From: Udeniomyces pyricola
Lineage: Eukaryota > Basidiomycota > Tremellomycetes > Cystofilobasidiales > Mrakiaceae
Length of the DNA: 64,000 nucleotides
Assembly: GCA_039545295.1 (NCBI GenBank)
Contig: BCIK01000013.1
Location: forward strand, 310,001 to 374,000
Direction of reading: 5' to 3'
Below are positions 3,187-59,396 of the stretch, piece by piece. The translations under genes were made by a program, and so were the position numbers. The notes beneath the pieces are model-generated. The model was not told the DNA's origin and searched no databases. It worked only from the letters and a program-made list of their open reading frames with translations. The stretch's first letter is position 1. Each line of letters begins with the position of its first letter.

Positions 3187-3439
3187 TGTTCCGTACCAGG
3201 AACGTTGTTTGCCTTTTAGTCTTGTCTTTTTCTTTCTGTCATTTTAGTTCCGATCACTTGTCCAATAATCAGCTGGTCCTGCCTTGGCTCTTTGAGTTGC
3301 ATCTGGTTCGCAGCGTACGAGTATCTCAGGGATGAATACAATGTCTCCTTGATAAACGGCCTGAGAGGTAAATAAAAACAGTGAAAAAAAAAACGATTGA
3401 TGAGTGGAGTAAGATTCGTGAGTGACTGAAATATATACA

Positions 3440-3475
3440 TGATATATATATGATATATATATGATATATATATAT
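3440..3475. repeat. short AT tandem repeat (GATATATATAT-like units)
   Basis: Three near-identical units of 11-12 bp built on GATATATATAT lie in tandem about 260-300 bp upstream of the POL1 start codon. Confidence 0.7.
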
Positions 3476-3524
3476 GCACACGATTAACTGCTGAATTAGA
3501 TTGAATCGTGCTGAATCAAATTGG

Positions 3525-3530
3525 ACGCGT
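3525..3530. promoter_or_regulatory. ACGCGT (MCB-like) box upstream of POL1
   Basis: A single palindromic ACGCGT lies 205 bp upstream of the POL1 ATG. In yeasts this hexamer is the core of the MluI cell-cycle box bound by MBF, and POL1 is a classical MBF target there. One hexamer can arise by chance, so function is inferred. Confidence 0.35.
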
Positions 3531-3734
3531 TCGGTTGATGTCTCTCGCGTCGACTTGCATCGACGCTCGAGGTTTCGCGTTTGACCATCATCTACTTTCA
3601 ATCGCCCCTTCGGTTCTCACGCCCAAACATCCTGCTCAACCCTCTCTTTGCTCTTCCCTTTCCCCTCAAATCAATTCAAATCCTTCACGTACCCCTGCGG
3701 CTGATCTCTCTCCACTAATCTTTCTTATTCTACT

Positions 3735-6700
3735 ATGTCGTCGTCGCGAAAGGGAGGCTTGGCCGCACTCAAGGCAGCTCGTGCTGCCGGTGGTCGCGCC
3801 AAACAGTGGGAGGTTCGCCCCCTCACCTACGACCCTCAGTCCACGCTGTTGTTCCTACTTTTGAGTCGATGCTCTCAGGCTTTGTATATCTAACCGTCTT
3901 TTCCTCCTCCTCGTTGATTCTCCGCTCCCTCCCCCCCTTGGTGATGTTACGCCAACGCAGAGCGAAACCGCATCCAACGAAATCTACGATGAAGTCGACG
4001 AGGACGAGTACAAGAACGTCGTCAAGAGCAGACTCCTCAGGGATGACTTCATCGAGGACGACGATGGCAGTGGGTATGCTGATGATGGACGGGAGGATTG
4101 GGGGCATCACGAGAGAAGCGACGAGGATGAGGACGAGGACGATGAAGAAGACGAGGCCGAAAGGAGGAAGCGAAAGGGTAAGTTGAGACAGCAAGTGCTG
4201 GTAGTTATTCGCCACAGAGACCTGATTGGGTAAAAAAAGCGGTCACTTGGGGAGCTTGTGTAGATGGATGGGACCCAGGATCCCAGTGATGAGCTACGCA
4301 TATTGTCGGGCTAGCGTGGACGAGGCGTACCACCTTGACTCCGTTTGACGTCCTGAGTCGCGTCGACTTGCTGATATGATTCACTCTCTGGATTTTAACG
4401 TCATCTCACCGTTCCAGCCCTCAAAAAGGCAGCCAAAGCCAAAGTAGCCAAATCGAAACCTCTCGTACGACCTCCACCTCCCTCGGCAAGCGCCTACCGA
4501 CCCGCCATCGATGAACGCAAGGAGAACGATCTCATGGCTTCGCTCCTCGCAGGTCTTGACGAGGCTCCGACGACCTCGCGTCGACCAATTATTCCATCCT
4601 CGCCCTTGTCCCGCAAGCGAGCATCCTCGCCCGATTTCTTCTCGTCGTCCCAGGGCGGAGGTCTCAGTTCGGACGGCATCGCTAGCGACGATAGCTTCCT
4701 TGGGACCCGCGGGGGCGACTGGCGTGGGGCACCTGATAAGCGAGCTCGACTTGATCGACGACCTCCTCCTCCGCCCCCTCTTCTACACAAGGGATCGTCC
4801 AGTGCAAGAGCCGCTGTCAAGAAAGAAGACCTTGAAGAAATTCCTGTCAAGCTTGAGGAGGATGTCGAGATGGGCGAGAACTTTGGCCTCGAACCTCCCG
4901 GCAGTCCGGACTGGCCTGACGATGACCCCGAGATGGAACCTTCGCCTCCACCTTTGAACCTCGCGGATACGGGCAAAAAACCCAAGAAGGAAGAAGTTTC
5001 AGACGATGATGACGATGACGACGAAATGGTGTTCAAGCCCAAGGTGCGAAGCGCCCAGCAGCAACAGGCAAAACGATCCTACGTCAACGCGTCATCCATC
5101 TCTACCAAGTCTTATCTGCCACCCGCACCGACTACCTCATCCTCCAAGCCCGCGAACAACACCCTTCGCCCCCTGCCCAAGTTCAATGACCCAGATGAAG
5201 CCGCTCCTTCGACTCCTGCCTGGCTCACCCTCGCCAACTCGCTCGCGGACGCGGACTCGCAGGGCCCACCCCCTTCCTCCGACATGTCCGTGCCTTCATC
5301 TCCTCCTCCCGAAGGCTCGCTCGCTCGACGAACTAAGACTCAGAAGAATGCTCCACCTACGACGACCATTGCCGCATTCGAGGCGTCCGATCCCACCACG
5401 CTGCGCATGTTCTGGCTCGACTACTACGAACGGGAGAGCAGGACGGGAGATATCAAATCGACCGACCTGTACCTCATCGGCAAGGTCTGGGACCGTGAAG
5501 GAGGTAACGACAAGCGCGGACAGTGGGTCAGTTGCTGTCTCGAAGTCAGAGGACTCCAGAGAAATCTCTTCGTTTGTCCGAGGCAGACATCTTTCGGTAA
5601 GTCTTGGCTGGCACGACGTCTCGCCACCCATGAGCTTTGAAACATGCCAACGACGAACGAAATTTTCTTCCTTTTTTCCTGTACTTCATCATTTTGCAGT
5701 CGGCGGCAGGTCGACCGACGTCGAAGTCAACCTTGCCGATGTCGAGCGGGAACTTACCCAGAAACGACGCGATGCCGGCATCTCTGCGTGGGCCTCGAAA
5801 TGGGTCGACCGGAAGTACGTTTTTGGTCTCGAGGGCGTTCCGACGGGCGAGTCAAAGTGGCTCAAAGTCGTTTACGGTTTTGATGGTGAGTTGACTTGCG
5901 TCCAGGGACTGAACCAGATTGAGAACTGAGAGAAAGAGAGAGAGGAAAACAGCCGTACTCATCAGAGTTGTCATTTCATGCCCTGTGACAGAGAATGTCC
6001 TCCCGGCCAACCTGTCTGGTAACACTTTCAGTCACGTTCTTGGCACCAACACGGCTGCATTCGAGATGCTTGTCGTCAAGCGCAAGATCATGGGCCCTTG
6101 TTGGCTCGAGATCAAGAACTGTCAGCTTTCCGGCGAGCAAGTGAGTGTCATTTTTACTTTTTATGTTTGGTTCATGGGACCTTCCCGGACTCCAATTCAT
6201 CTTCTGGCCCGTTTTCTGGGAAACTATTCTTGTAGACTTCATGGTGCAAGCTCGAAGTCATGGTCGACGATCCCAAACACATCAGCGTCCTCGACGAGGT
6301 CAAGGAGGTCCCGCCCCTCACTATCATGTCTCTCTCGGCAAGGACTATCATCAATCACAAGGAGAACAACCGAGAAGTTGTGTGCATCTCTGCCCGAGTT
6401 TGGCCCAACTGTCAGTGCATGCATCCCCGCGCTCTCGCAAGTTGGTTTGATACCTTTTTTTTCCTTGACGCTCTGGAGATTGCTGACGAGATACGATGTT
6501 GGTCACGACGATTCCAGCTGCTATCGATGACCCGACGCCTCCCGAGCGACAGCGCAGTCAGATCCATACAGTCGTTCGTCCCCTCGGCAATTGGCCGCCT
6601 GGCTTCAAAGAGAAAGCGGCCATGTCGGGATCCAAGATCTTTACCGCTAACAGCGAGCCTGCTCTCCTTGCCAACGCTTTGGGTACGTGTTCTCTTGAAC

Positions 6701-9700
6701 TTGGATCTTTTCTTACGTCGGCAGGTTCCACGTTTGTGGCGTTGTTACCGTTGTTATTCTTGCTGGTGTTGTTGCTAAAGGTGTCTCTGCTCGCTCGACT
6801 TGGACAGCTAACATCGTCAAGCATGATCCCGACGTCATCGTTGGTCACGACTTCCTTAACGTCTCGCTTGAGGTCATCCTTCAGCGCATGGCCAAGCACA
6901 AGAATGCCCACTGGTCCAAGGTCGGACGAATTCGGAAGAAGGGTACCCCGCCCGCGAGCAACAGGTTCGGAAGCATCATTAGCTCGCTCGTGGGCAGACT
7001 CGTCTGTGATTTGACGAGTGATGGAGCCAAGGTGAGTTCCCGAACCGAGACCAGGACCTTGCTGCTAGGCGTAATTGTCATCTTATTCTGGTGATAATCA
7101 ATTGACAACCCCTTTCTCTGCCCGCTTGTCTCACACTTAGATCATGATCCCCTCGACGACGTGGTCGCTCACGGAGATGTGCAAGAGTCAACTCAAGATT
7201 GATCGAGAGGATATCGATCCAGACGACACGCATACCTTCTTTGACGACACCGTCTCCTCACCCGAGCGACTGCTCCGCTTCGTTCGTCACTGTGAGGTCG
7301 ACGCCTTCTTCCAGATGGCCATCGCCTCCAAGGTCCAGCTACTCCCTCTCACCAAGCAACTCACGGTTCTCGCAGGAAATTCTTGGTCAGTGACGAATCC
7401 CTTCCATCAAGCCCCTTTGGACCGAGTACTCACGCAATTCATCTGCGCCGGGTGCTTTTTTTTTTGCTGCAGGAACCGCACGCTGAATGGAGGTCGAGCG
7501 GAGCGTATCGAGTATATGCTTCTTCACGAGTTCCACCGACTGAAATACATTTGTCCCGACAAATTCAGCGGCAAGAACAAGGCTGCTCTCGTCAAGGCCG
7601 AAGTCGAAGACGGTGATGGCGCCGCTGCCTCGGCTGGCGTCTCCAAAAAGGGCAGCAAGCGAGACAAGTACAAGGGTGGTCTCGTCTTCGAACCGAAGAA
7701 GGGGCTTTGGGACAAATATGTTCTGGTCATGGATTTCAACTCGCTGTATCCGAGTATCATCCAAGAGTACAACATTGACTTTACAACGCTCAATGTTGCT
7801 ACGGAGGAAGATGTCAGTCGTTTCCTCCTCCTCTTCAGTTTGGTACTTTACTTGACTTGCATGCCAAGCCGTGTCGATGACTGAGGGTCGCGTTAGCTGA
7901 TTCGGTTGCTCGCATTTGTGCTTTCGACGATCTAACATCTAATTCTCTAGGAGGACGGCGAAGAAAAGATGCCAGAGGTTCCGTCTCGTGAGGCGACACG
8001 TGGTGTTGTTCCCACCATCATTTCCCAACTTGTCAATCGTCGAAAGGAAGTCAAGAGCCTCATGAAAAAGCCGACCTCGGACACCCAAATGATGCAGGTT
8101 TGTCTCAAAACTCTCAAACGTTCCTTCATGACCCATCTTTGTCGACTTTTTCTGAACATCGACCGTCTTGTTCCACCTTCTCTCTTTCTCGCTTCTGCCG
8201 TTTCGCTCTCTCTGTGATGCGTCGGTTCTCTTTCATGCAGTACAACGTTCGACAACTCGCACTCAAACTGACCGCCAACTCGATGTATGGATGTCTTGGT
8301 TTTGAGTACTCTCGGTTCTACGCTCGACCCCTCGCCGCTCTCACGACCTTCAAAGGCCGAGAGATCCTGACGTCGACCAAGGAACTGGCCGAGTCCATCA
8401 ACCTCGAGGTAATTTGTCTCTCTTCATTCGTGTATACTTCTGGATTATTTAGACCAATCTCGCTGATCCATCGATATCGTATGTTTGCTTCGAACGGATT
8501 CGGGTACTCCCATCTCCCTATCAGGTCGTCTACGGAGATACAGATTCGGTCTTTGTTAACTCCAACGTTACCAATTATGAGGAAGCTATCAAGATCTCCA
8601 ACCTCTTCAAACAGCAGGTCAACGAAAAGTACACCCAGCTCGAGATCGATCTCGATGGCGTCTTCCAGCGGTTGTTGCTCCTCCAAAAGAAGAAGTATGC
8701 CGCCGTCAAGGTCGAGCCGAACGGAGCGACGAGTACCGAGATCAAAGGGTTGGACATGAAACGAAGAGAATTTTGCAAACTGTCCAAAGACGTTTCCCAG
8801 TGGGTTGTCGTCTTCCGAGATCCGGAAGAGAATGCATCCGTACTGCTGAGTGTGTTGATAACGACGCTGACATCGTGGTGTGGGACTCCTTCGACTGTGT
8901 GGGTGTTACTCGTAGATATGTCCTTGATCGTGTCCTTTCTGGGGAAGATACCGAGGTGTGCATCAGCAAGATCCACGACTACCTCGGTTCCATTAACGAG
9001 AAAGTTCGCGAGGGTCGCGTCGACGTCGACGACTTCATTATCAACAAAGTGCGTAGTTGCTTTGACCGAGGCACATGCGACGCTCTCATCAAAGAGTCGA
9101 GTGCTCGAAAGCCATGCTCACTACAATTCCATCACGTTTCCTTTTGTCGTCTTCTCTCGCTTCCTCCTTCCTGCTCTTTTCCAGAGACTTGGTAAGAACC
9201 CTGAGGAGTACCCTGATGCCAAGTCCCAGCCTCAAGTCCAAGTTGCCCTCCGCATCAAGTCACGCGGAGGCTCGGCTCGTGCTGGCGATGTTATCCAATA
9301 CATCTTCTGTTTGCCGACCGACGGACGAACAGCAAGGTCGGCTCAGGCTGAGAACGCTTACCATCCAGACGAGCTGAGAAAACAACCCGAGCTCAAGATT
9401 GGTACGCACGCCGTGTCTCCCTCGCATGAGAACAGCCCGTAAAACAAAGTAGAGCAAGTGCAATCGATGGTGAAAGCTCACACGTCTTTCCTACTCCTGA
9501 ATCATCGATCAGACTACGAATACTACCTCTCTCTACAAGTACTTCCTCCGATAGAACGTCTGTGCGAGCCCATCGAAGGCACAGATCGAGCTCGACTGGC
9601 CGAATGCCTTGGTACGTTTCTCCGTGAACCGAACTGGTCCTCCGTCGAGCCCGCTGTCTGGGCCGGACTAACTTCCGCCTGCCATTGCAACTCTCTTGCC

Positions 9701-10933
9701 CCTTTTCTTTCTTCGCTTTTCTTTTCTTGTCCTTTAGGCCTCGATCCTGAGCGGTACGCGGTGAAGACTGCGGGAGGCGATGTCGAACGCGAGTTCACGA
9801 CGCTCGGTTCCAAGATCAACGACAAGGAACGTTTCGCCGACTCTACGCCGCTCGAGGTCAGGTGTATTCAGTGCGAACATACTTCGGTCTTTGGAGGCCT
9901 TCTCGACGATCCGGTACGACCCGAATCTTGTTCATTTGTTTATTTTTGTCTTTCTTCCGTTTTGCCTCGTTCCTCTCGGACGCTGCTAGAGAGAGGAGAT
10001 GCGGCCAGTGGGGCTCGTTGCATCCGTATGCAGTGGAGATATCTCTATTGATTCTCTTTAGCTGACTGTTTCACTCTTACCCCATGTAATCTTCGTCCCT
10101 CCTGCTCTCCTCTCCGTTCGCGTCCCTGTCGATTCTGCCCCATGCGCCCTGTTAGGACAAGGTCATCCGTCCTACTGGTTCCACCTGTCCCAAATGCTCC
10201 TCGCTCTACCCCTTGCCTTCGCTAGCAATCCAGCTCGAGAATCAAATCCGAGCCCACGTCTCGCGATACTACCAGACCGTCATGGTGTGTGACGATCAGA
10301 GCTGTGGTAATATCACAAGGGCGATGGGTGTCTATGGAAGGAGGTGTATGGTTGCCGGTTGCAAAGGCTCAATGAACCTCGAGGTGAGTACGAAAGACCC
10401 ACACCTGAGAAGGCAAGGAGAGTGAGATAGAATGAAGCATGCTGGGCAGTGGCGAGGAACTAGGATCGTTGGCTATTGCTTGTTGCTGATCTTGACCCCG
10501 ATTACGGCATGTCTCGTTTCTCCTTGAACATCAGTACACCGACGCCGCCCTGTACACTCAGCTGTTGTACTTTGCTTCTCTTTTCGACACCGACAAAGCC
10601 TTGGCAGCGGCTAAGTCGACTTCCAGAAATGGTTCGTTCATCACCACTTGACTTTATTTCCTCGCTTCCGCATCATGGAGTAGTCAAGAATGGGGTGGAC
10701 ATGTTCCTCGAGCTCACGCACTCACAAACTGACCCCTGCGTCTACTACCCTTCCCCCTGTTCCCTCTTTTCTTTCTCTCCAATTGTTCTCATCCTTCATC
10801 AGACGAGATTGTCGCGCTCGCTGGCCTGAACCGAGCGCCCTTTGACGAGCTTCGAGCAGTGGTCCAACGGTACATCGCCAAGAACGGTCGAGGTTGCGTC
10901 GAGATGGGATCCATCTTCTCCTTTATGCGTTAA
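3735..10933 (+). CDS. POL1: DNA polymerase alpha catalytic subunit
   Basis: This is the catalytic subunit of the polymerase alpha-primase complex, which extends RNA primers at origins and on the lagging strand in the nucleus. Twenty exons join to 4629 nt (1542 residues), all in phase: 3735-3812, 3961-4177, 4418-5596, 5700-5885, 5992-6140, 6236-6410, 6518-6682, 6808-7031, 7141-7385, 7473-7812, 7951-8097, 8241-8408, 8525-8799, 8916-9048, 9185-9401, 9513-9611, 9738-9913, 10156-10383, 10535-10631, 10803-10933. The N-terminus has the family motif [20 protein letters not shown]. Family B motif A ([11 protein letters not shown]) is near residue 960, motif B ([13 protein letters not shown]) near 1045 and motif C (YGDTDS) near 1095. 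Two C-terminal zinc modules follow: CIQC/CPKC, then CDDQSC and CMVAGC. The protein is slightly longer than yeast Pol1 because of a Ser/Pro-rich linker in exon 3. The start is the first ATG and its residues resemble other Pol alpha N-termini. An ACGCGT box lies upstream. Confidence 0.96.
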
Positions 10934-20307: not shown

Positions 20308-23300
20308 CTAGTTCTGAATGAGGCCCCTGGTCGCATTGGGAAGCATGCGGATGGCAACCTTTCTCACACCCGTGAACTGAGTTGCCAAGACAGAACGAAA
20401 CGTACGGTCAACTGAAGGCGCTCGCAAGAACAGGTATGGGCGGCGAATACAACCAAGACCAAAGAGGAGAAGCAGAGAAAAACTCACGATCAAAGGCAAA
20501 TGCGACAGAAGTGTGTAGCAGATGATGACACACATGATAGGCAGCCAGAAGAGCCAGAGCCTGAGAAAACCGACGAAAGTGATAGTCAAGAATCAGCCAA
20601 ACAAGCTCAGACACGCCGAAGCGTGTCAATCGCCCTACATACGCGAGCAGAAGAAAAGCAAAACGTACATTCGATCGGCTTTCGCCTTTGCCTTGCGCCT
20701 AGCAGCGGCATCCCGGCCTTCCTTGGCGATAACGAGTGAGGTGGATTTACCAGTAGACGACTTGGACGAGAGCTCGCTGTGGGCCGAGCGGCGTCGAAGG
20801 GAGACCTTGGCCGTCGGCTGCTCGAGGAGTGGCATCGTCTTAACGTCACTCGGCATCACGGAATGGGCCGAGCGAGACGGTCGTGACTGTGGGTGCTGGA
20901 GCTGAAGCTGCTGCTGCTGCTGCTGCTGGTGATGTTGCTGCTGCTGCTGCTGCTGGTGGAGAAGCTGCTGTTGATGCTGCTGCAAAAGCTGATGCTTCTC
21001 CATATCCATCGACTGCTGTTCGATCGACACTTCCTTGCCCGAAGGCGACGGACCAACGCCACCACTCGACGCACCGGCAGGTCCAACCTCCTTGAGCCAT
21101 GTGGCAAGAGCGAACGGTAGCCAGGGGTAGACGGCTGTCAGATGAGCCCAGGTCGGTACAGTCGCAGGTCCAGCGTCGCCACCCTCGGTCGGTCGGCTCC
21201 AAGGATTGAGTTGAGCGGGCAGGAAGGGGATATTGTTGGTGATGGCCGTTGGCAAGGGAATGTCGGACAAGTGTCTGGGAAGGGCGACAGGAAGGTGCGG
21301 GATGAGGCGGTTCGTCGGCGGAAGCGAGGAAAGCGTGCGTCGGACCCAGGACTCGACGTTGGGCTTATGAACGGGGAGTGACGCGAGTTGGTCCGTGTTC
21401 GAGCCTGATGCGGCGGTGGAAGTCGAAGCAGTAACGGACGAGTTGTCAACGATGGTGGCGGTTGGAATCTCGAGTTGGGAAGAAACGGGCGGGGAAGGAG
21501 CAGAGACAGTGGGATCGGGCGCATCGTCGTGCGGCGACAGGGTTTCAGACTGAAGCAAATGTGGACTCGTTGCACCGTCGGAAAAGTACGAGGGGGGCTC
21601 GCCTGAAGTGACGCGAGTGCCGTAGACGGGTTGCTGCTCCGTGCGTTGCGAATCAATCGAGAGTCGACGCCTTGTGAGTCCCGGAGCCGTCCGCGAGCGC
21701 CCGAGAGGACCGAACCGACCACTTCTACTTCGCATGAGCGGAGTAGCCGTTCCCTCGGCGTCTTCGTCGTCGCTGCCAAGGCGATCGCCATCCTCTTCTC
21801 CGCTCGAGAGCGTGACGACCTTAGACGAGGAAGCAATGGCAGCAACCGTCCGTCTGCTGTGTCCCACGCTCTCCTCGGTATCCGAATGATCGATCTCGTC
21901 TTCGGAGCTCGGGTTATCGGCATCGATGGAGCTCTCGCTGGCCTCGGATCGTTCCTCAACGCTTTTACGAGCCGAGGCGGCCGCTGGACTGTCCTCGAAG
22001 AAACTCAAAAGCGCACTGCGCTGAACGAGGAGACCTTCGACGTCGACCTGGTCTCGCTCTCGGGCGAGGTCAAGAGGACTCTTGCCATCCGCAGTGACGA
22101 CCTCGGGCTCGGCTCCAGCGTCGAGGAGCAACCGTGTGCAAGCGAGCCGACCGCAGAGGGCGGCAAAAGCCAGAGCCGTGTATCCGTTGCGATCGCGCGC
22201 GTCAAGATCGGTGCCAAGCGAGATAAGACGCGCAACGAGTCGGTGGAAACCAAGCATGACGGCGAGATGGAGGAGCGTCTGGCCTTGAGGATTCTTGTGC
22301 GAGATCGTGGCGGCCATCTCGAGCGAGGGTGAGCCAGGGATGGTCGGCGCATCGACCTCGACGAGGGCAAGGAAATTGATGATAGTATCTTGGAAGTTGC
22401 TTCCGCGCGAGGCGTTGGACCAGGCGAGACTTGTCGAGTCGGTTGAGGCACGTCCGGGGGCGATAGTCTGGGCTGAGCGCGAGGTACCAGCGTACGGTGA
22501 GGACGCCGCTGAGGAGCCTCCCCCGCTTCCGCTGTGTGAAGGCGTCTGCCCGACAATGCGGAGAGCGACATTCTTGGCATCTTCGATGCGACCAGTCATC
22601 TTGAGGCCGACAACTTGGAGGGCGAGTTCCATCCTATGAAAAAGGGGCAATGTCCACAGGTAGAGAGAAATCAATTGCGGTCAGCAACAGACAAAGCAAG
22701 AGAGGGCACTGTCAAAGCGAGGAGAGAGAGAGACCCGCCAACGTACAAAGCTCGATCAGACATATCCAGGTAGGTGAACAGCTGGAGGCCCTCGCCGCTT
22801 TGGTCGTGATGGCTGCTGTTATCGTCGTCCAGCTCGATCGCTTGATCGTCATGCTTGAAGCTGACCACGACCGGTCCCGGGCAGGAACTCGGCGGGAGAA
22901 GGCAGACGAGGGTATTCGAAGACCAGAATTGAGTACTAGTCGATGGGCAGTCACCGAAGATGCAGGTGAGACCCTCGACAAAGTTTTGGCCGAGAATGGT
23001 GACCTCGACCCCGCCCGACATCGGACCCTCGCCCGGGATGAGACGCGTGATGAGCGGTCTGGGCGCTGGCGGTGGTGAGGGCGGCATGGCGATAAGATGA
23101 GAAAGTTGGGTTGGGTAGACAGCTTCCTGCTGCTCGTGCTGAGGGGAGAGAATGGTCGAAGGCGCACCAAACGTGGAGAGATGAGGCTCGTAACCGTCTG
23201 GGCGGGGCGTAGAGATGGAGGGAGGGTAATAGAGCGGGTTTGCATCTGACCACGGAAGGTGAAGTTCGGGTTGATGAGCGTACGAGGGCTCGGGAGGAGT

Positions 23301-26300
23301 GCGAACATGAGTGGAGGTCGGCAAGCTGACACTGGCAAGCAGTCGCGGCGAAGGGAGCGAGCTCGGCGGCGAGTCAGCGGAGGGAAAGAGGGATTCGAAC
23401 GTCATGGGCTCCGAGGGGGGCGTGAGGATTGCGTCCTCGTCGTCGAACTCAAATCGGTCCGGCAGTGACTGATGGTCCGGCGAAGGTTCCGAGGGGAACT
23501 GAAAAGCCTCGAAGTCGACCATCTGGTCGAACACGAGCTGCTCCTCGACACGGGCATGCGTGGCGGCGACTTCAACTGTCATGGCGTCGTCAGGAGGGAA
23601 TAGACCTTCGCCTTCCATGCTCAAGACCTCCTCAAGTTTGATGCCCCCTTGCTGCTGCCCTTGCGAAATGTCCGACTGCTGCTCGTGGTGATGATACGCG
23701 ACCTCAGCTTCGGGCTGCTGCTTCTGCTGCTGGATAAGGGGGTGGTCGAGGGGAGGAGCGACATCAAACTCAGCCTCGAGCTCCATGGCGACGTCGAGCA
23801 AGGAGTCTGGAACATCATTCGCCGCCTTTGCGTCGTCCTCGGACGATGAGAGCGGAGCATGTTGCGCCAGGTGCGAGGCAAGTACCTGAGGATCGAGTGC
23901 CGAAAGATGAGTGGCGTTCGAAGACGAGTCCGAGTCGCGGTCGAGACCGCGCAGGCCAAGGCTCGCTCGACGGTTGGATGCCTCGCTCGCGCGTGAGAGC
24001 GAGGGTGCTGGGGAGGTCATTCCGTTGATCGTCGAATAGATGGGAAGATTGTCGATGGTGAGGCGAGGTTGATGGCAGGCAAGGTCTGCTGACATGGGTC
24101 CGCGTAGAGCATGATCGAACGCCTCGCGAGGGGACAGGTTGGATGAAGCAACCGAGGGCGATGAGTGAATCGAGGCTGGAATCGACAGCGGCGTCATGCT
24201 GAGTGCGCGTGGAGTCGGGGCCACGGACGAACTCGCACTGCTTGCCGCCGAGACCTTGCGGTCGTACGGTTTACTCTTCTTGTGGCTCTCCTCGGCCGAA
24301 ACGCTTGACTCACGCTTTGCCGGGCGCTGGCGGGACTTGAGAGACTTAGCGTTGGGAGGTGGCGGCTGGGTGTGCGATGGCATGATGATGGCTTTAGGAA
24401 GACTCAGGGTCGGGACGGAAGTGGCGGCAGGCGTCGTAGCGGGCGTTGGCTTAGCCGTCGACGACTTGTGATCATCAGTGATAAGGATGGGCGGCGTGCA
24501 TCCGGAAGCGACAATGTTACCGAGGTAGTCCTTGACGACGAGCTTGAGGCTAAAGAGAGTGAGGAGACGCAACCAACAACATGAGCAACACAACCACACA
24601 TTGACCCGAGCCCTGAAAGAAGTCAGTCACACGAGACCGCCTACTCACATGAATCCCGTCTTCTCGCGGTGGTGACGGCAATAGCAGGTGATCCTCGCCG
24701 GGAGCGTCGCCTCGCCTTGGGAGAAGTCCAAGACAGTACCACAGTTGTAGAGGACAATCTTGTGTCGCTCGTCTTGAGCGGCTGACGCAGCCTCGCCCTT
24801 CTTGACCATGCTAGGCGTGTCGAGATCCGAGTCAGACAGCGTCGGGCGGATACGCGTTTCGGCCTTGCGTTGAAATCGCTTGACCTAGGTACATTCACAA
24901 CAGGACAAGATGTCAGTTGGAGACAGTGACATAGTCAACTATTTCAACAGAGACATTGTCGAAAAGCCGTTCCAAATCTCACCTCTCTCGTTCGACAACC
25001 GGCACACGCAAAAACCCTCAGCCCAAGCGAAGGATCACCTTCCACCGGTAGCTGCTTGACTTGCTCCCCCTTTTTCGCCTTTTTCGCCGTCTTGGGCACG
25101 ACACCTTCGGTCGCACAGTAAACCTCGGTCTCGAGGAAGAGCATCTCCTCCTGCTTAGGTGTCGGCATCTTTGCCATAGACGCGGCTTTCTTGGACTTTC
25201 GCTTCGTGGCCGTCCCTCGCTGGAGCTTGAGATGGGTAAAGTTGGAGATGTAAGCAAGGTCGCTCTCGGACGAGGAAGCTGAAGTCGACGACGAAGCCGC
25301 CGATGCGGAAGGTGTCGGTAGCGGGAGGGTCGAAGTCGAGGCATGTTGCGAAGCGGTGGCAGCCCCGGCGGGAAGGGCGAGTGCGATGCGAACTTTGACT
25401 TGAGTCTCGACTCGAGACTTGGCCCCGACCAGGGGAACGCCCGTAATAGTGAGGGGAAGACTAGATGCAGCACGATCGGGACGGAAAACAAGGGGAAAGA
25501 GGGTGGGGGGAGTAGAGGGCGGGGGACGATACAGGGGAACACACCGGCGGGCGAAAATAAAACGTGTCAGCCAGCTGGCCCAACAAACCGGCAAGGCAAG
25601 TGCCGAGCCTGCAATGAGGTTGCGACTCATCGTCAACTCAGCAACCAAGGTTCAACATTTGAGGACTCACTTGCGAGCACGTTCGGAGGGGATGTGGACA
25701 AGGTTCCTCCCCTTAACGGAGGACAACTCCATCTTGTTGCCCATCGAGCTCGAGACTGAGACTGAAGCAAAGGAAGTGCTCGCCGACAGAGACGGTTGTG
25801 GTTTGGGTTGCTTTTGCTGTTGCTGATACGTGGGGGCGAGGGCAGCACGCGATGGCATCTGCTGAAAAATCTGATGAGAAGGTGTCGGTAGCGAAGACGA
25901 GGGTGAAGGGAAGGGGGGGAAGGAGGTATGCTGGGCGAGGAGAGGGTGGGAGGAGTGATGTTGATGCTGGGATAGACTTTGGAAGGGAATAGGCAATACG
26001 GCCGAGAAGGAAGGGAAGACAAGATCAGTAAGGGGCCCTTCAGCGTCATGAAGAGTGGAGAGACTGGAGAGCGAGTAGAGTGTGAGGGCGGGTCCGCAGG
26101 GTGAGATGGGGGGAGTGCGAGAGCGAAGGCAATTATCAATCAAGCGATAAGCTTCATGCAGTCGGTCCTCATCATCGCGTGGGGAGGAGGTGTAGAGGGG
26201 CAAGACCGGCCTAGCCCCAGACCATGGGAAGCTCGGGCCGATAGCAAGCATTCTGACGATATGACGATCATAAATCGATCTCGAGACGTCGTATCTTAGC

Positions 26301-50977: not shown

Positions 50978-51412
50978 GTTCCAAACGTCGACCAATGAGG
51001 TCAGTGGATCGTTCGAGATGAGTCCAACCTGATACTAGAGACGCGTCAGTGGATGGTTTGGCTGATGAAGGATCAAACGCGTGTCTGTAGGGAGAACGGG
51101 GGAATGAGACTGACGGGATGATGAGAAGAGTGAGCTAGGTGGGATGTTGGGTATAGGGATATGATGTTAGTATATATGTGAATGCGAAACGCGAATGCGA
51201 ATGAGTTGATGGGTGGGGCCTGGGGCCTGTGGCAGGGTGCGCAAGACAGGGCGAGGGATGATGATGATAGAGGATGGATATATGCAGTCCAACTCATGAT
51301 CAGCTGTTTGTCGTCCCGACGCGTCAAGCGCTCAGCTTGACGCGTCGGATTTCTATAATCTTTCCATAATCACGATGAATCCATCATCCCATCAGTCCAC
51401 TCGTCCACCACC
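50978..51412. promoter_or_regulatory. divergent Sld3-like/ORC5 promoter with four ACGCGT boxes
   Basis: The 435 bp between the two start codons contain ACGCGT at 51041-51046, 51077-51082, 51319-51324 and 51340-51345. The hexamer is expected about once per 4 kb by chance at even base composition. It is the core of the MCB element bound by the MBF (Mbp1/Swi6-type) G1/S regulator in yeasts. The last two lie in a perfect inverted repeat near ORC5. Regulation of both genes from here is inferred. Confidence 0.6.
51317..51347. repeat. perfect 13-bp inverted repeat containing two ACGCGT boxes
   Basis: Left arm CGACGCGTCAAGC (51317-51329), spacer of 5 bp, right arm GCTTGACGCGTCG (51335-51347). The arms are exact reverse complements, and each contains one ACGCGT. 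The centres of the two boxes are 21 bp apart, that is two helical turns. It lies 66 bp upstream of the ORC5 ATG. Confidence 0.85.
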
Positions 51413-53639
51413 ATGTCCTCCTTCATCACCATCCCCACATCCCTCCTCGATCTCCTACAGCCCTATCTATCACCCCCAGCTCCGTCAGAAGCATACCCTC
51501 CCATCACCCTCTTCATCCATCCTCACCCCACCATCTCTCGCCTGCTCTCAACCTTTCTCCCGCGTCTCCTCAACCCCACCGATCCCTCGTCGTCATCGTC
51601 GTCATCACCGTCACCCCCACCATCACCGTCGACGGCTCTCATCGATGCCATCGAGTTTGGATCGTCCGTCAAGTCGTTCGCTGAGGAACTCTACCGCCAA
51701 TGGGCCTTACCCGCGGCCAAATGGGATGGTTGGGAGGGCTTTCTCCGAATGCTAGAACGAGAAGAAACAACTCAAGAACCCAAAGATACCGTCTTTACCA
51801 GCAGTGAACACTCCACCAACCACCGTCGAACCGGATGTCTGCGACCAGGTCGTATCCTTGTCATAGACCGGGCAGAGCAACTGAGGGGTCCGATGGGGTT
51901 CGGACCGGGTGGATTGGCGGGTTTGTTTTGCCGGTTGAACGAGATGGTAAGGCCAGCCTGGTCACATTTTATTTACAAGTGTTTTATATATATATATCGG
52001 GTATAAAAAGTTGCCTGTAGCTCTCAACGGCAAGTCCTTCTGACTGATCAGTACTCATGGCTATCTGGTTCGCGTGGGACTGATATCAGACATCGGCCAG
52101 TATCACCGTCGTTTTCGTTTCGACAACGCCCTGGGATTACATTCGTCCTTTGCCCTGTTCTTTCCCCGACCCCCTTATCCTTACCCTTCCCGCCCTCACT
52201 TCCCTCGAGACGATGGCGTATCTTCAATCCTCCTCTCCGCTTCCATCAAATCACCTGTTGACCTCCTACTACCCACCGTTTCTCTCCCTATTGCATTCCA
52301 CTCTCGGATCTTCCCACCCATCTCCTTCGACCCTTCTTCACATGGCTCATCACCTCTGGCCAATCTTCATTGCGCCCCTCCTGGCAGCTCTCGAGACCTC
52401 ATCTGAACCTCTATCTCCGGAATATATTCTTCCTCCGCCTCCATCGGCGACGCTCGTCGAGCTATCCCAACGAGCCAAGGCGGCTTTTACGATGGCTTCC
52501 TTGAACCCTTCCAAACTCGCTACCTCACTCGCTCCATTCCTTCTTCCACCTCTTCAACGTTCTCTCTCCCTAGCCGCTTCGACTAGAGATACGCATCATC
52601 AGCATGTGACCCTTCCGACGCACCTGCCGAGGATGGCGAGGTTCCTTCTGTTGGCGGCGTTCCTCGCCAGTTACAACCCGGCCAAGAAGGACCGCGCGTT
52701 CTTTGGAAGAGCGAGATGGGAAGGAGGTGAAGGGGGGAAGAAGAGAAAGGGTGGTGTAGTCAGGAAGGTGGGAGGTGGGGCAAAGAGGAAGGCAACGACA
52801 GCGAAAGTGAGTCGAAATGAGAGGAGGGAACCCCCCCCTCTTTGTGTTCTCTTCGTCTCTGGTAGTGATTTAGTTCGGCTGCTCTTGTGACAGTTCCTCA
52901 GGAATATGGCTCATACTCGACTTATCTCTCACACCTACTGTCGTCCGCATGTCTCTCTCTCTCTATCGTCTCTTCACCCTTGATTCATCTCATTTCATTC
53001 TCATCGAACTCAGATTCCTCAAACTTTACTCGGGCCCAAACCATTTCCCGTCGACCGTCTCCTCGCCATCTTTGGCGCCCTCCTCGCAGAGCACGATCGA
53101 CCTTCCCTTCTTTCTGAAGATCCCCCGACCTCGACCTCCCAGGCGGGGCTGTTAGGGCCCGCGGCCGTCTTGGGTAAGGCAGGAGAGAGGAGGAGAGATG
53201 AGAATTGGGAGGAGGAAGTTGGGGAGATTATGAATAGTGTCGGCGTGAGGTCAATGGTACGTAAACGATCACGAGAAATCATGAACATAGGAAAAAGAGG
53301 GAGGGAGGAGGGTTCCATTGCTCTGCCTGCTTTCCTTGGGTTTCCTATCTCCTTGAGGGAGAGAGGATATACATTTTTTCTTAGTTTTTTTCTCTTGAAT
53401 GTCGTTTAATTTCTCATATCCATTCGCTTCGCCTTTTTCTCCTTCCTTTCCCATCGCCTTACTCTACCCGTCCAACCCAGATCCCAACGCTCATCTCGCT
53501 GCACCTTCTCCAGCGGACGTCTCCTCCCGACCGACTCGAGGGCCTCATGCTCCGCACAGGACTTGGTTGGGATCAAGCCGTCGCTTTGGGACGCACCGTC
53601 GGCGTGAGGGTCGAAGACTTTTGGGCGGGTGATGATTGA
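51413..53639 (+). CDS. ORC5: origin recognition complex subunit 5
   Basis: ORC5 is an AAA+-like subunit of the six-subunit complex that marks replication origins and loads MCM. Four exons join in phase to 550 residues: 51413-51946, 52090-52806, 53014-53256, 53481-53639. Recognisable segments are a Walker B-like RILVIDRAEQLR (147-157), sensor-like ITVVFVSTTPWDYIRP at the start of exon 2, FLLLAAFLASYNPAKKDRAFF, the family motif LLGPKPFPVDRLLAIFGALL, and a C-terminal winged-helix-type ISLHLLQRTS with a final GRTVGVRVEDF. The Walker A position (FIHPHPTISRLL, 34-45) lacks the G-x(4)-GK-T/S core, and a Ser-rich insert follows, so ATP binding is doubtful. The start ATG sits in a good context (CCACCATGT). 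The Sld3-like gene is divergent and shares the ACGCGT-rich promoter. Confidence 0.9.
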
Positions 53640-55328: not shown

Positions 55329-58300
55329 ATGCCTCCCAAACCTCCTCCTCCTCTTACCCCCGCTCAAGAATCCCTTATCGCCCAATTCTCCACCCTCTTC
55401 TCCTTGCCCGAAGCCCGCGCCACCGAAATCGCGCGCAATCCCAAGCAAAGCGCCGCGCTCTCTGATCTCGCCCAACGTGCCACCACCCAGGGGTCTCAAC
55501 CCTGGTCCGAAGACAAGGGCAAGCTCATGGTCACTCTCATTGGACAGGGTGGTAAACTCGACGCTGACGCGAGGGCAACTGTGAGCGAGGCTATTGACAA
55601 CGGAAAGTTGGCGACGAGCGATCAGGTCATTGGTACGTTCTGCTCTGCTTACCTTGCATGAACGGATTAGAATCCGCTTAGCATATGATGAGAGATGATT
55701 TGACTTGGGGTGTATCCAAGCTTGCTCAACATTACGTTCGCTCGTAAATGAAGCCAAGGTTGCTGAAGACATAGCAAGCTGATCAACGCTTCCCTTCTCT
55801 GCCCAACTCTTCTTCCAACGTTTCTCCATTATGTGTCTTCTCCGTCGGAACCAGCCGGTGTCAAGTACATGGAAACTCATTCCAAGTCTTACAACGAAGC
55901 CGAATTTGACAAGTCCTGTGGTGTCGGTCAGTCTCATCTTACCACTAGCTCTTCGTTCTACTTGATCTAATCGACAGAAGAAGCCCCTTACTTCAATTCT
56001 CTTTGTATGGAAACAACCACTAACGCTCCGGTCATCTCCATTCTAGGTATCAACATTTTGGACTCTGACATTCCCACGATGGTCTCGACCATGTTGGCTT
56101 CGATGAAACCCGCTGGCTGGGAAGACGTTGGCAAGGCGCTTGGCTTGACCAAGACGACAGATCTCAAGTAAGTCTTACGAGACTTGTGGCCTGCTTTTGT
56201 CTCTTGTCTCTCTTGCCCCTTTGTTGAGAACTTGTCGTTAATCGTGTTTGATCTTGTGTTAGGTGGGCCGCCCCTTTGCCCGTCAAGACGGCCCTTGAAT
56301 CGGCATTTGAGGCGCTCTTTGGATCCAAGGAGGCTGCGAAGGAGAAGCGAGCCAAGGTCGGTTTCGCATCGTCGTTGACGCTATACTAGAAAACCCCTCC
56401 TGCCTCATAATACCGACTCGATTGGTACTCTGATGGAAAGTCTAACTCATCACTTGCTGGTCATCATCCATCATTCCGATATAGGACCCCAAACCCGCCA
56501 AACCCGCCAAAACTCCTGCCGCGGCCACCACGACTAACGCGTCCTCTGTTATCGAGCCTGAAGACCCCGCGAAAGTCATGTTTGAATCCGGTTGGCTCTC
56601 GAGACTGCACAAGCCGGGAGAGAATCCTCAAATCAGTGACAAGTTGAAGGAGGAGCACTTGAAGACGACGGGTGGCAAGGTGTTGACGAGGTTCCCGCCG
56701 GAGCCGTGAGTTCTGGAGCGGTTTCTGTTTGGTGTTCTGTGTTCCGGCTCGCTTTGAATTCTTTTGGTTGGGCAGGTAGAAGGAGAGGAGTGGAAGGACG
56801 AACGTGACGAAGTAGCAAAAACAACTGTGGATCAGGAGATTTGCCAGGCTATGATGCAACCTGAGAGTGATCTCTGACCCAATCGCTGGTTCGCTTAACC
56901 CATACTCCTGCCCTGTTGGTTTTTTTTTCTGTCTCGTCCGTTGGTCCTCTCAGGAACGGATACCTCCATATTGGACATTCCAAAGCCATCACGATCAACT
57001 TTGGCTATGCTGCACACAACAATGGTCACACCTACCTCCGAGTAAATCCATACTCTTTCTTTTCCGCTTCCTTCTTGATTCACTCTTCTCTCCTTCATGC
57101 TATGCCTCAGTTTGCTGATTTTCCTTCATGACTTTCGCCTTGGTTCTCGTCCCCCCTTTCTTATTCCTCTTCTTGATCTATAACTAAAGTACGACGACAC
57201 GAACCCGTCGGCGGAAGAAGCTGCCTACTTTGAGTCGATCCTCGAGATGGTCCGTTGGCTTGGGTTCGAACCCTGGACGATCACGTATTCGTCCGATCAC
57301 TTCCAGAGGCTCTTTGATCTTGCGACGGAGTTGATCAAGAAGGATAAGGCGTATGTTTGCCATTGCTCAGGTGAATAATCTCATGTTCTGTTCTCTGAAG
57401 AGAGAAGGGCGGGGCTTTTGGTTTTGCTGTCGATCCTTCTTCTCATTCAATTCTGTGTCTCCATTTATATCAACAGCCGAGGAACAGTTCCATCACCGTG
57501 GCGGTGCTACGTCCCAAGCCCGAACTGCCTGCGCGCACCGTACGCGCCCGATCTCGGAATCTCTCGTCGAATTCGAACGCATGCGACAGGGCGCGTTCAA
57601 GAAGGGTGAAGCGACTCTGAGGATGAAGATGAACCTCGAGAGTGGAAACCCTCAAATGTGGGATCTGGTCGCGTACCGAATCGTCGAGGCCGAGCACCAC
57701 AGGACCGGTGCGGAGTGGAAGATTTACCCGTGAGCGTTTTTGAAGTCTGAATCTCTTGGTTACTGCTGAACACGATCTAGTTGAGGTTGAAATACTGACG
57801 CTTGGTTGGCCTGTTCTTCTTCTTTCATCGTTGGCTTACGACAGAACTTACGACTTCACTCATTGTCTCGTCGATTCCTTTGAGAACATCTCGTGAGGAT
57901 TTCTTGACTTCATCTTTGGATTTCACCTCATCCTCTCATCAGAACACTCCATGTGGTTTGTGTGGTCGATTGAGGTTGTTTTGATTGTGACATTCAAGTG
58001 TTGACGTGCCCCTTGTTTTTCCTGTTCTTACTCAATCCACACCAGTCACTCGCTTTGTACGACCGAATTCATCAACTCGCGTGAATCGTACGACTGGCTG
58101 TGCGATGCGCTCGAGATCTACAAGCCTCGTCAATCCGAGTACGGTCGACTCAACATCCAAGGCACCGTCATGTCCAAGCGCAAGATCAAGAAACTCGTCG
58201 ACGAAAAGTACGTTTCCGGGTGGGACGATCCTCGAATTTACACGCTCATCGCCCTTCGACGTCGAGGCGTCCCCCCGGGAGCCATCATTAGCTTCATTCA

Positions 58301-59396
58301 ATCTCTCGGTGTCTCAACGGCGAGCTCGAACATTCAGCTTGTCAAGTTTGAGGCGTCGATCCGAGCGTTTTTGGAATCGTCGGCGCCGAGGTTGATGTTG
58401 ATCTTGCAACCGCTCAAGGTGACTCTGACCAACGTCCCCGATGACTACCGCGTCATGTGTGAGAAGCCGCTTCACCCCAAGATTCCCGCGTTTGGTGTCG
58501 CTCAGATTGCTTTGACCAAGACGGTCTACATCGACCGGGATGACTTCCGAGAGGTCGATTCGAAGGATTACTTTAGGTTGGCGCCGGGAAAGACGGTCGG
58601 GTTGTTCAGTGCCCCCCATCCCGTCACGTGCACCGAAGTCATCAAGGACGAGCAAGGCAACGTCGTCGAGGTGTTGGTCCGACTTGAGACGGAATCGACT
58701 AAGAAACCAAAGGCCTACATCCGTGCGTTGATCATTCTTGGATCTGATGAGTTGAAACTCAGGTACCGGAAGGAGTATCATCAGCTGACATCCCCCAATC
58801 CATGATATCTTTTATGCCATTCCCAAACGTCATTTGCCTTCCTCTTCCTTGCATCATCTCCATGACATCTACCTTTGTCGTCCCGTTGGCTATCTCCAGA
58901 ATGGATCCCTGTTGACCCTCAAACCTCGTCCCCAACGCGCATCTCTGAGACGCGAATCTTCAATCCCCTCTTCAATTCGGACGACCCTGCTGCGCTCGAT
59001 AACTACCTTGATGACATCAACCCCGACTCGCTTACCCTTCACTCGACGGCTATCCTCGAGCCGGCGTTTTGGTCGCTCGCGAAGCGATCGATCCTCGCTG
59101 CCCGACGCGATGCTAAGGAACGAACGGTCAAGGCGCTCGAGGGCGCCAAGAAGGATGCGCTGCATGGCGAGGGCGATGAGAGTACCCCAGTGGCGAGGGC
59201 AGAGCAGTTGGTTGGATTGGAATGCGTGAGGTTCCAAGGGTTGAGGGTTGGGTACTTTACGGTCGATAAGGACTCGGTCTTGGGTTGCTTGGATGAGGAG
59301 GAAGGCGTCGAGCCAGGGTGGAGGGAAGGTGATAAGTTGGTACTCAACAGGATTGTGTCACTCAAGGAGGATACGGCTAAGAAGACGGTTGGTTAA
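55329..59396 (+). CDS. GLN4: glutaminyl-tRNA synthetase, cytosolic
   Basis: This class Ic enzyme charges tRNA-Gln with glutamine. Eleven exons join in phase to 851 residues: 55329-55632, 55855-55926, 56047-56167, 56263-56356, 56485-56705, 56954-57041, 57190-57370, 57477-57729, 57845-57892, 58046-58722, 58900-59396. Residues 1-200 form the eukaryotic GlnRS N-terminal tRNA-binding appendage ([20 protein letters not shown]). A Lys/Pro/Ala-rich linker leads to the catalytic Rossmann domain, with [12 protein letters not shown] (HIGH at 276-279), [15 protein letters not shown], and the KMSKS-type loop [11 protein letters not shown] near 502. The C-terminal anticodon-binding beta-barrels include IQWIPV and end with [16 protein letters not shown]. 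The overall length is close to yeast Gln4. One acceptor (TAACTAAAG at 57181-57189) lacks a pyrimidine tract but restores the invariant DDTNP. NUP84 follows on the same strand. Confidence 0.94.

Follow-up and report, generated by a model that had tools for sequence, protein, structure and literature searches.

A box-rich divergent region between ORC5 and a Sld3-family gene in Udeniomyces pyricola as a candidate MBF-type G1/S promoter

The ORC5/Sld3-family locus

In Udeniomyces pyricola, ORC5 and a gene of the Sld3 family lie head to head, and the 435 bp that separate their start codons hold four copies of the hexamer ACGCGT, the core of the MluI cell-cycle box (MCB) through which fungi switch on replication genes ahead of DNA synthesis. 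This locus falls within a stretch of 64,000 nucleotides from contig BCIK01000013.1 (assembly GCA_039545295.1, positions 310,001 to 374,000), which is referred to here, in its entirety, as the window. The coordinates of all features are collected in Table 1. Both the divergent order and the four boxes had been proposed in an initial annotation made from the letters of the window, and both are confirmed: 435 bp is the exact interval from the ORC5 ATG (51413, plus strand) to the Sld3-family ATG (50977-50975, minus strand), and the hexamers begin at 51041, 51077, 51319 and 51340.

The plus-strand gene keeps the identity first given to it. Its product matches the Pfam family ORC5_C (PF14630) with an E of 1.2e-29 and 104 bits, above the curated cut-off of 28.2 bits, and is 48 % identical to the ORC5 of Mrakia frigida, with the N-terminus of which its start agrees. 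The minus-strand gene was rightly described as Sld3-like, the name being given by homology and not by domain model since its own score lies under the cut-off. The one clear named relative in a protein search is the Phaffia rhodozyma 'DNA replication regulator Sld3' (P0001; E 7e-52, 33 %), the match covering 90 % of residues 1-490, and P0001 itself passes the Sld3 STD model PF08639 with 39.9 bits. Against the same model, residues 1-470 of the Udeniomyces protein score 20.6 bits, below the cut-off of 24.9, and residues 1-817 give no match at 0.01; neither the Sld3 pair nor Phaffia P0001 found anything useful in the PDB. Within the gene model, the final two exons, which are Ser-rich, are the least certain. 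The start is also less firm than that of ORC5; the similar N-terminal length of the Phaffia protein gives no sign of an absent long first exon, a short one being possible, and on the Sld3 strand there is no ATG in the 273 bp upstream of the start. Mrakia frigida and Phaffia rhodozyma, the closest two named relatives, both belong to the Mrakiaceae (Cystofilobasidiales, Tremellomycetes). For Phaffia, the Sld3 and ORC5 entries both give a contig of 2,340,728 bp, which suggests that the two genes are linked there, order and distance aside.

Table 1. Position, strand and description of the features discussed (window coordinates, except for the Mbp1-type gene)
Feature	Position	Strand	Description
ORC5, 550 aa	51413..53639	+	Hand-built; exons 51413-51946, 52090-52806, 53014-53256, 53481-53639
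Sld3-family gene, 1092 aa	46686..50977	-	Six hand-joined exons 50977-50646, 50451-50358, 50139-49661, 49503-49066, 48868-47763, 47515-46686; Phaffia rhodozyma Sld3 homology
ORC5/Sld3-family divergent intergenic (promoter) region	50978..51412		Between two start codons; four ACGCGT
ACGCGT box 1	51041..51046		GACGCGTCA context; 64-69 bp upstream of Sld3-family ATG
ACGCGT box 2	51077..51082		AAACGCGTGT context; 100-105 bp upstream of Sld3-family ATG
Variant box ACGCGA	51189..51194	+	Near middle of 435-bp region
ACGCGT box 3	51319..51324		GACGCGTCA context; 89-94 bp upstream of ORC5 ATG
ACGCGT box 4	51340..51345		GACGCGTCA context; 68-73 bp upstream of ORC5 ATG
Perfect inverted repeat	51316..51348		14-bp arms, 5-nt loop; one GACGCGTCA per arm (boxes 3 and 4)
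POL1 (DNA polymerase alpha)	3335-10048	+	DNA_pol_B and alpha zinc finger; ATG 3735
Mbp1-type gene	G000:C8:584109-589000		KilA-N (at C8:585.6 kb) and ankyrin repeats

Arrangement of the boxes and the inverted repeat

The four boxes form one pair per gene, each lying 64-105 bp upstream of its own ATG, with about 240 bp between the two pairs. Boxes 1, 3 and 4 share the GACGCGTCA context, and these three are all the copies of that nonamer in the 64-kb window, a number reached by 4 of 100 shuffles. Boxes 3 and 4, with a start-to-start distance of 21 bp, occupy the two arms of the only perfect inverted repeat in the window that has arms of at least 12 and a loop of no more than 20, and the mirrored GACGCGTCA pair, searched with a gap of 0-12 bases between its halves, occurs once in the genome. 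Being arms of one inverted repeat, boxes 3 and 4 may not be independent of one another and may descend from one event. The spacing of box pairs was searched across the whole genome, on both strands, as ACGCGTCA followed after 0-30 bases by ACGCGT, giving 59 matches, of which five self-mirrored pairs appear twice. Three distinct pairs, the ORC5-SLD3 pair included, have the 21-bp distance, compared to about 1.7 under a flat spread, so no general phasing of box pairs is claimed.

Box density in relation to chance and base composition

The initial expectation of about 0.1 ACGCGT in 435 bp is correct at even base composition (430/4096). At the rate of the genome, which has 7185 copies in 25,008,836 bp, 0.125 would be expected, and the probability of four or more in one pre-chosen stretch is 9e-6. 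Since the genome holds approximately 57,500 such stretches, some 0.5 clusters of this kind are expected genome-wide at the mean rate, and the weight of the cluster thus comes from its location and not from its rarity. ACGCGT occurs 20 times in the window, where shuffled versions average 10.4; outside the two replication promoters of the window, the 8 sites in about 30 kb of non-coding DNA are near the genome rate by a crude codon model, with no non-coding excess. As a source of the boxes in the region, CpG richness was ruled out by the CpG count (26 vs 26.5 expected) and by the context of CGCG, all five occurrences of which belong to the four ACGCGT and the one ACGCGA, whereas elsewhere in the window ACGCGT accounts for 15 of 222 (Fisher P 1.7e-4, with the rest of the window taken without the POL1 promoter).

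The motif in other replication promoters and across the genome

For comparison, 400 bp upstream of the hand-called ATG was taken from eleven genes of the same genome, namely MCM2-7, POL1 (which is also in the window), POL3, PCNA, CDC45 and ORC2, the start codons of POL3 and MCM5 being uncertain. The individual MCM and polymerase genes were assigned by the features of their families, with the alpha zinc finger as a further match in the case of POL1. Left out of the eleven were a presumably REV3-like polymerase (L086), the start of which was not reached, and a polymerase match at C12:352 kb, and a search of the genome with PF03477 did not find RNR1. ACGCGT is present upstream of seven of the eleven (MCM2, MCM3, MCM6, MCM7, POL1, POL3 and CDC45), with 1.2 expected (binomial P 4e-5 at the genome rate), and in six of nine in a smaller set. 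The exact hexamer is absent from the 400 bp upstream of MCM4, MCM5, PCNA and ORC2, PCNA having a copy at -479, and in the 400 bp downstream of the comparator ATGs it is found in 3/11 (P 0.11). When all hexamers were ranked with ORC5-SLD3 excluded, CGCGTC/GACGCG was the top word that is not a simple repeat, with 19 occurrences vs 3.5 expected in 10 of the 11 promoters, standing third overall behind ATATAT and TATATA; ACGCGT ranked 13th of 1568 (8 vs 1.1). Additionally, among 8-mers filtered for simple repeats, GACGCGTC was third (4 vs 0.07, in 4/11), behind two ATGA-repeat words. Some of these promoters are rich in CGCG as a whole, which accounts for part of the comparator enrichment: CGCGCG occurs 10 times vs 1.1 expected, and ACGCGT makes up 8 of 40 CGCG vs 15 of 222, a difference with a P of only 0.013. 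No comparator exceeds two ACGCGT per 400 bp, compared to four in 435 bp at ORC5-SLD3. Within the window, POL1 has ACGCGT at 3525 and ACGCGA-type variants at 3543 and 3573.

Genome-wide, GACGCGTCA has 598 matches, about nine times the 68 of the reversed pattern. Neighbouring genes were sampled at up to 30 loci per search, covering 84 of 104 and 80 of 92 script-picked ORFs, a comparison weakened by introns, short loci and the absence of a control set. At 26 GACGCGTCA loci of contig C1 (84 ORFs), almost no replication families were seen among 25 of the 26 matched families, and the same was true of 23 paired-box loci (80 ORFs, 21 families), the condensin family Cnd1_N being the sole recognised cell-cycle family across the two sets. 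Three self-mirrored pairs (L008, L061 and L071; 10 ORFs) gave one Pfam match, MMM1. On this sample, the GACGCGTCA motif alone appears not to be diagnostic.

A candidate factor and known systems

The genome encodes an Mbp1-type protein with a KilA-N domain and ankyrin repeats, the one match of a KilA-N search that, run exon by exon, can miss others. Compared with solved Mbp1 DNA-binding domains, its KilA-N piece, spliced by eye, is closest to 4ux5 (E 1.4e-38), which we take to be the PCG2 complex, followed by yeast Mbp1 1l3g (3.6e-28). The protein keeps EKVQGGYGKYQG, which fits the QXGXGXXQ motif, and its CGCG-reading wing is intact; in PCG2, the two glutamines of that motif read CGCG (PMC4333399). 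ACGCGT also occurs around the Mbp1-type gene itself, at C8:587419 and C8:585784.

The history of SBF and MBF in fungi has been reviewed, with data (PMC4862756, in part). In Cryptococcus neoformans, which, like Mrakia frigida and Phaffia rhodozyma, is a tremellomycete, the same ACGCGT core is described in promoters belonging to the G1/S network and to 38 periodic replication genes, and is attributed to an Mbp1/Swi4-type factor; the excerpted text names ORC1, CDC45, POL1, POL3 and MCM6, though not ORC5 or SLD3, and its excerpts describe neither a divergent pair nor mirrored boxes (PMC5137879). In budding yeast, origin-firing and polymerase genes such as SLD2, CDC45 and POL3 are likewise assigned to Mbp1/MBF, in a text with 0 occurrences of SLD3 (PMC2911115). 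A parallel in architecture comes from fission yeast, where, in excerpts of one study, the S-phase genes hta1 and htb1 diverge from a single intergenic region bound by an MBF subunit; unlike ORC5-SLD3, which is known from sequence, those are histone genes with measured binding (PMC2726434). A full-text literature search of limited scope yielded no title on a shared ORC5-SLD3 promoter.

A probable divergent G1/S promoter and its alternatives

We consider it probable, at roughly 0.7, that the region is a box-rich divergent MBF-type G1/S promoter for ORC5 and the Sld3-family gene, operating within a broad replication regulon. The boxes and their geometry, the identities and order of the two genes, the motif shared with other replication promoters and an Mbp1-type gene with an intact wing are direct observations, to which this interpretation would add the binding of the factor, the timing in the cell cycle and the control of both genes and not just one. 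Whether the region is one compact divergent promoter or two that abut, an MBF-type complex would most likely occupy its GACGCGT(CA) sites, with the Mbp1-type protein from G000:C8:585.6 kb as DNA-binding subunit, and ORC5 and the Sld3-family gene would be transcribed in the G1/S wave alongside other replication genes. The mirrored boxes, two helical turns apart, might seat two such complexes on the same face of the DNA.

The initial annotation had read the boxes as MBF-type sites, and that reading gains support from the replication promoters (ACGCGT in 7/11, GACGCG/CGCGTC in 10/11), from the Mbp1-type gene and from the precedent in the C. neoformans excerpts (PMC5137879). Its further proposal, that one bidirectional promoter couples origin recognition to origin firing, is not upheld. 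Because MCM, polymerase and CDC45 promoters share the motif, any co-regulation would belong to the general G1/S regulon, and because each gene has a pair of boxes close to its own start, the sequence accommodates two back-to-back promoters as readily as a single shared one.

The foremost alternative is one of division, namely that the boxes act on one gene only, or that boxes 1-2 serve the Sld3-family gene and boxes 3-4 serve ORC5 in separate promoters placed back to back, with the head-to-head order representing compact packing and no shared element. This has a substantial chance of being right, somewhat short of even. It fits the spacing of the two pairs, each close to a single ATG, and it has a counterpart in fission yeast, where, in the excerpted study, binding seen at a gene that diverges from an MBF target may belong to the neighbour only (PMC2726434). 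Against it, both genes act in replication initiation and each has its own pair, so that membership of the same regulon is expected under either division.

That the cluster is chance or neutral, ACGCGT being common in the genome and two of the four copies stemming from one inverted-repeat event, is unlikely. The half cluster or so expected across the genome, the fact that GACGCGTCA sites mostly adjoin other genes, and the location of boxes 3 and 4 in one inverted repeat all favour such an origin; nevertheless, ACGCGT accounts for four of the five CGCG in the region as opposed to 15 of 222 in the remainder of the window, other, independent replication promoters are enriched for this word as well, and two replication genes flank the cluster. 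A still smaller likelihood attaches to the inverted repeat working as a hairpin in the 5' untranslated region of the ORC5 transcript, or as a binding site for a different factor, with ACGCGT incidental: positions 51300-51415 do fold at -34.6 kcal/mol (z -6.0 vs shuffles) with the 14-bp stem included, and the repeat spans 65-97 bp upstream of the ORC5 ATG, but its arms contain GACGCGTC, which is enriched in other replication promoters (4/11), and six ATGs at 51258-51296 on the ORC5 strand suggest a transcription start downstream of them, which would probably leave little space in the transcript for the whole stem.

Should the divergent MBF-type G1/S promoter be borne out, MBF control of replication genes would be extended to what is apparently another basidiomycete order, and the locus offers a small, exact set of boxes for mutation. 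Sld3 is among the factors that limit origin firing in budding yeast, and a G1/S promoter shared with an ORC subunit would therefore give a simple handle on replication capacity. A more ambitious version of the idea, which we regard as speculative and improbable, holds that the head-to-head ORC5/SLD3 order is an old arrangement conserved in the Mrakiaceae or Cystofilobasidiales, and that the mirrored GACGCGTCA pair is a composite MBF platform that adjusts an ORC subunit together with a limiting firing factor, i.e. a single dial for licensing and firing capacity.

Additional observations in the window

If transcribed upstream of ORC5, the inverted repeat would fold into an RNA hairpin of very high stability. 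From 51250 onward, the ORC5 strand has one ATG besides the six already mentioned, at 51375; it lies 38 bases upstream of the ORC5 ATG, is out of frame and opens a frame of 126 codons that overlaps ORC5, making it a possible upstream ORF, subject to where the 5' end lies. Elsewhere in the window, two long adjoining ORFs on the minus strand (20635-24626) carry a TIG domain, a sub-threshold match to the SPT23/MGA2 DNA-binding region and ankyrin repeats, and probably encode an SPT23/MGA2-like regulator, and the plus strand at 58005-58805 contains a gene for a class I tRNA synthetase of the Glu/Gln type, with catalytic and anticodon-binding domains.
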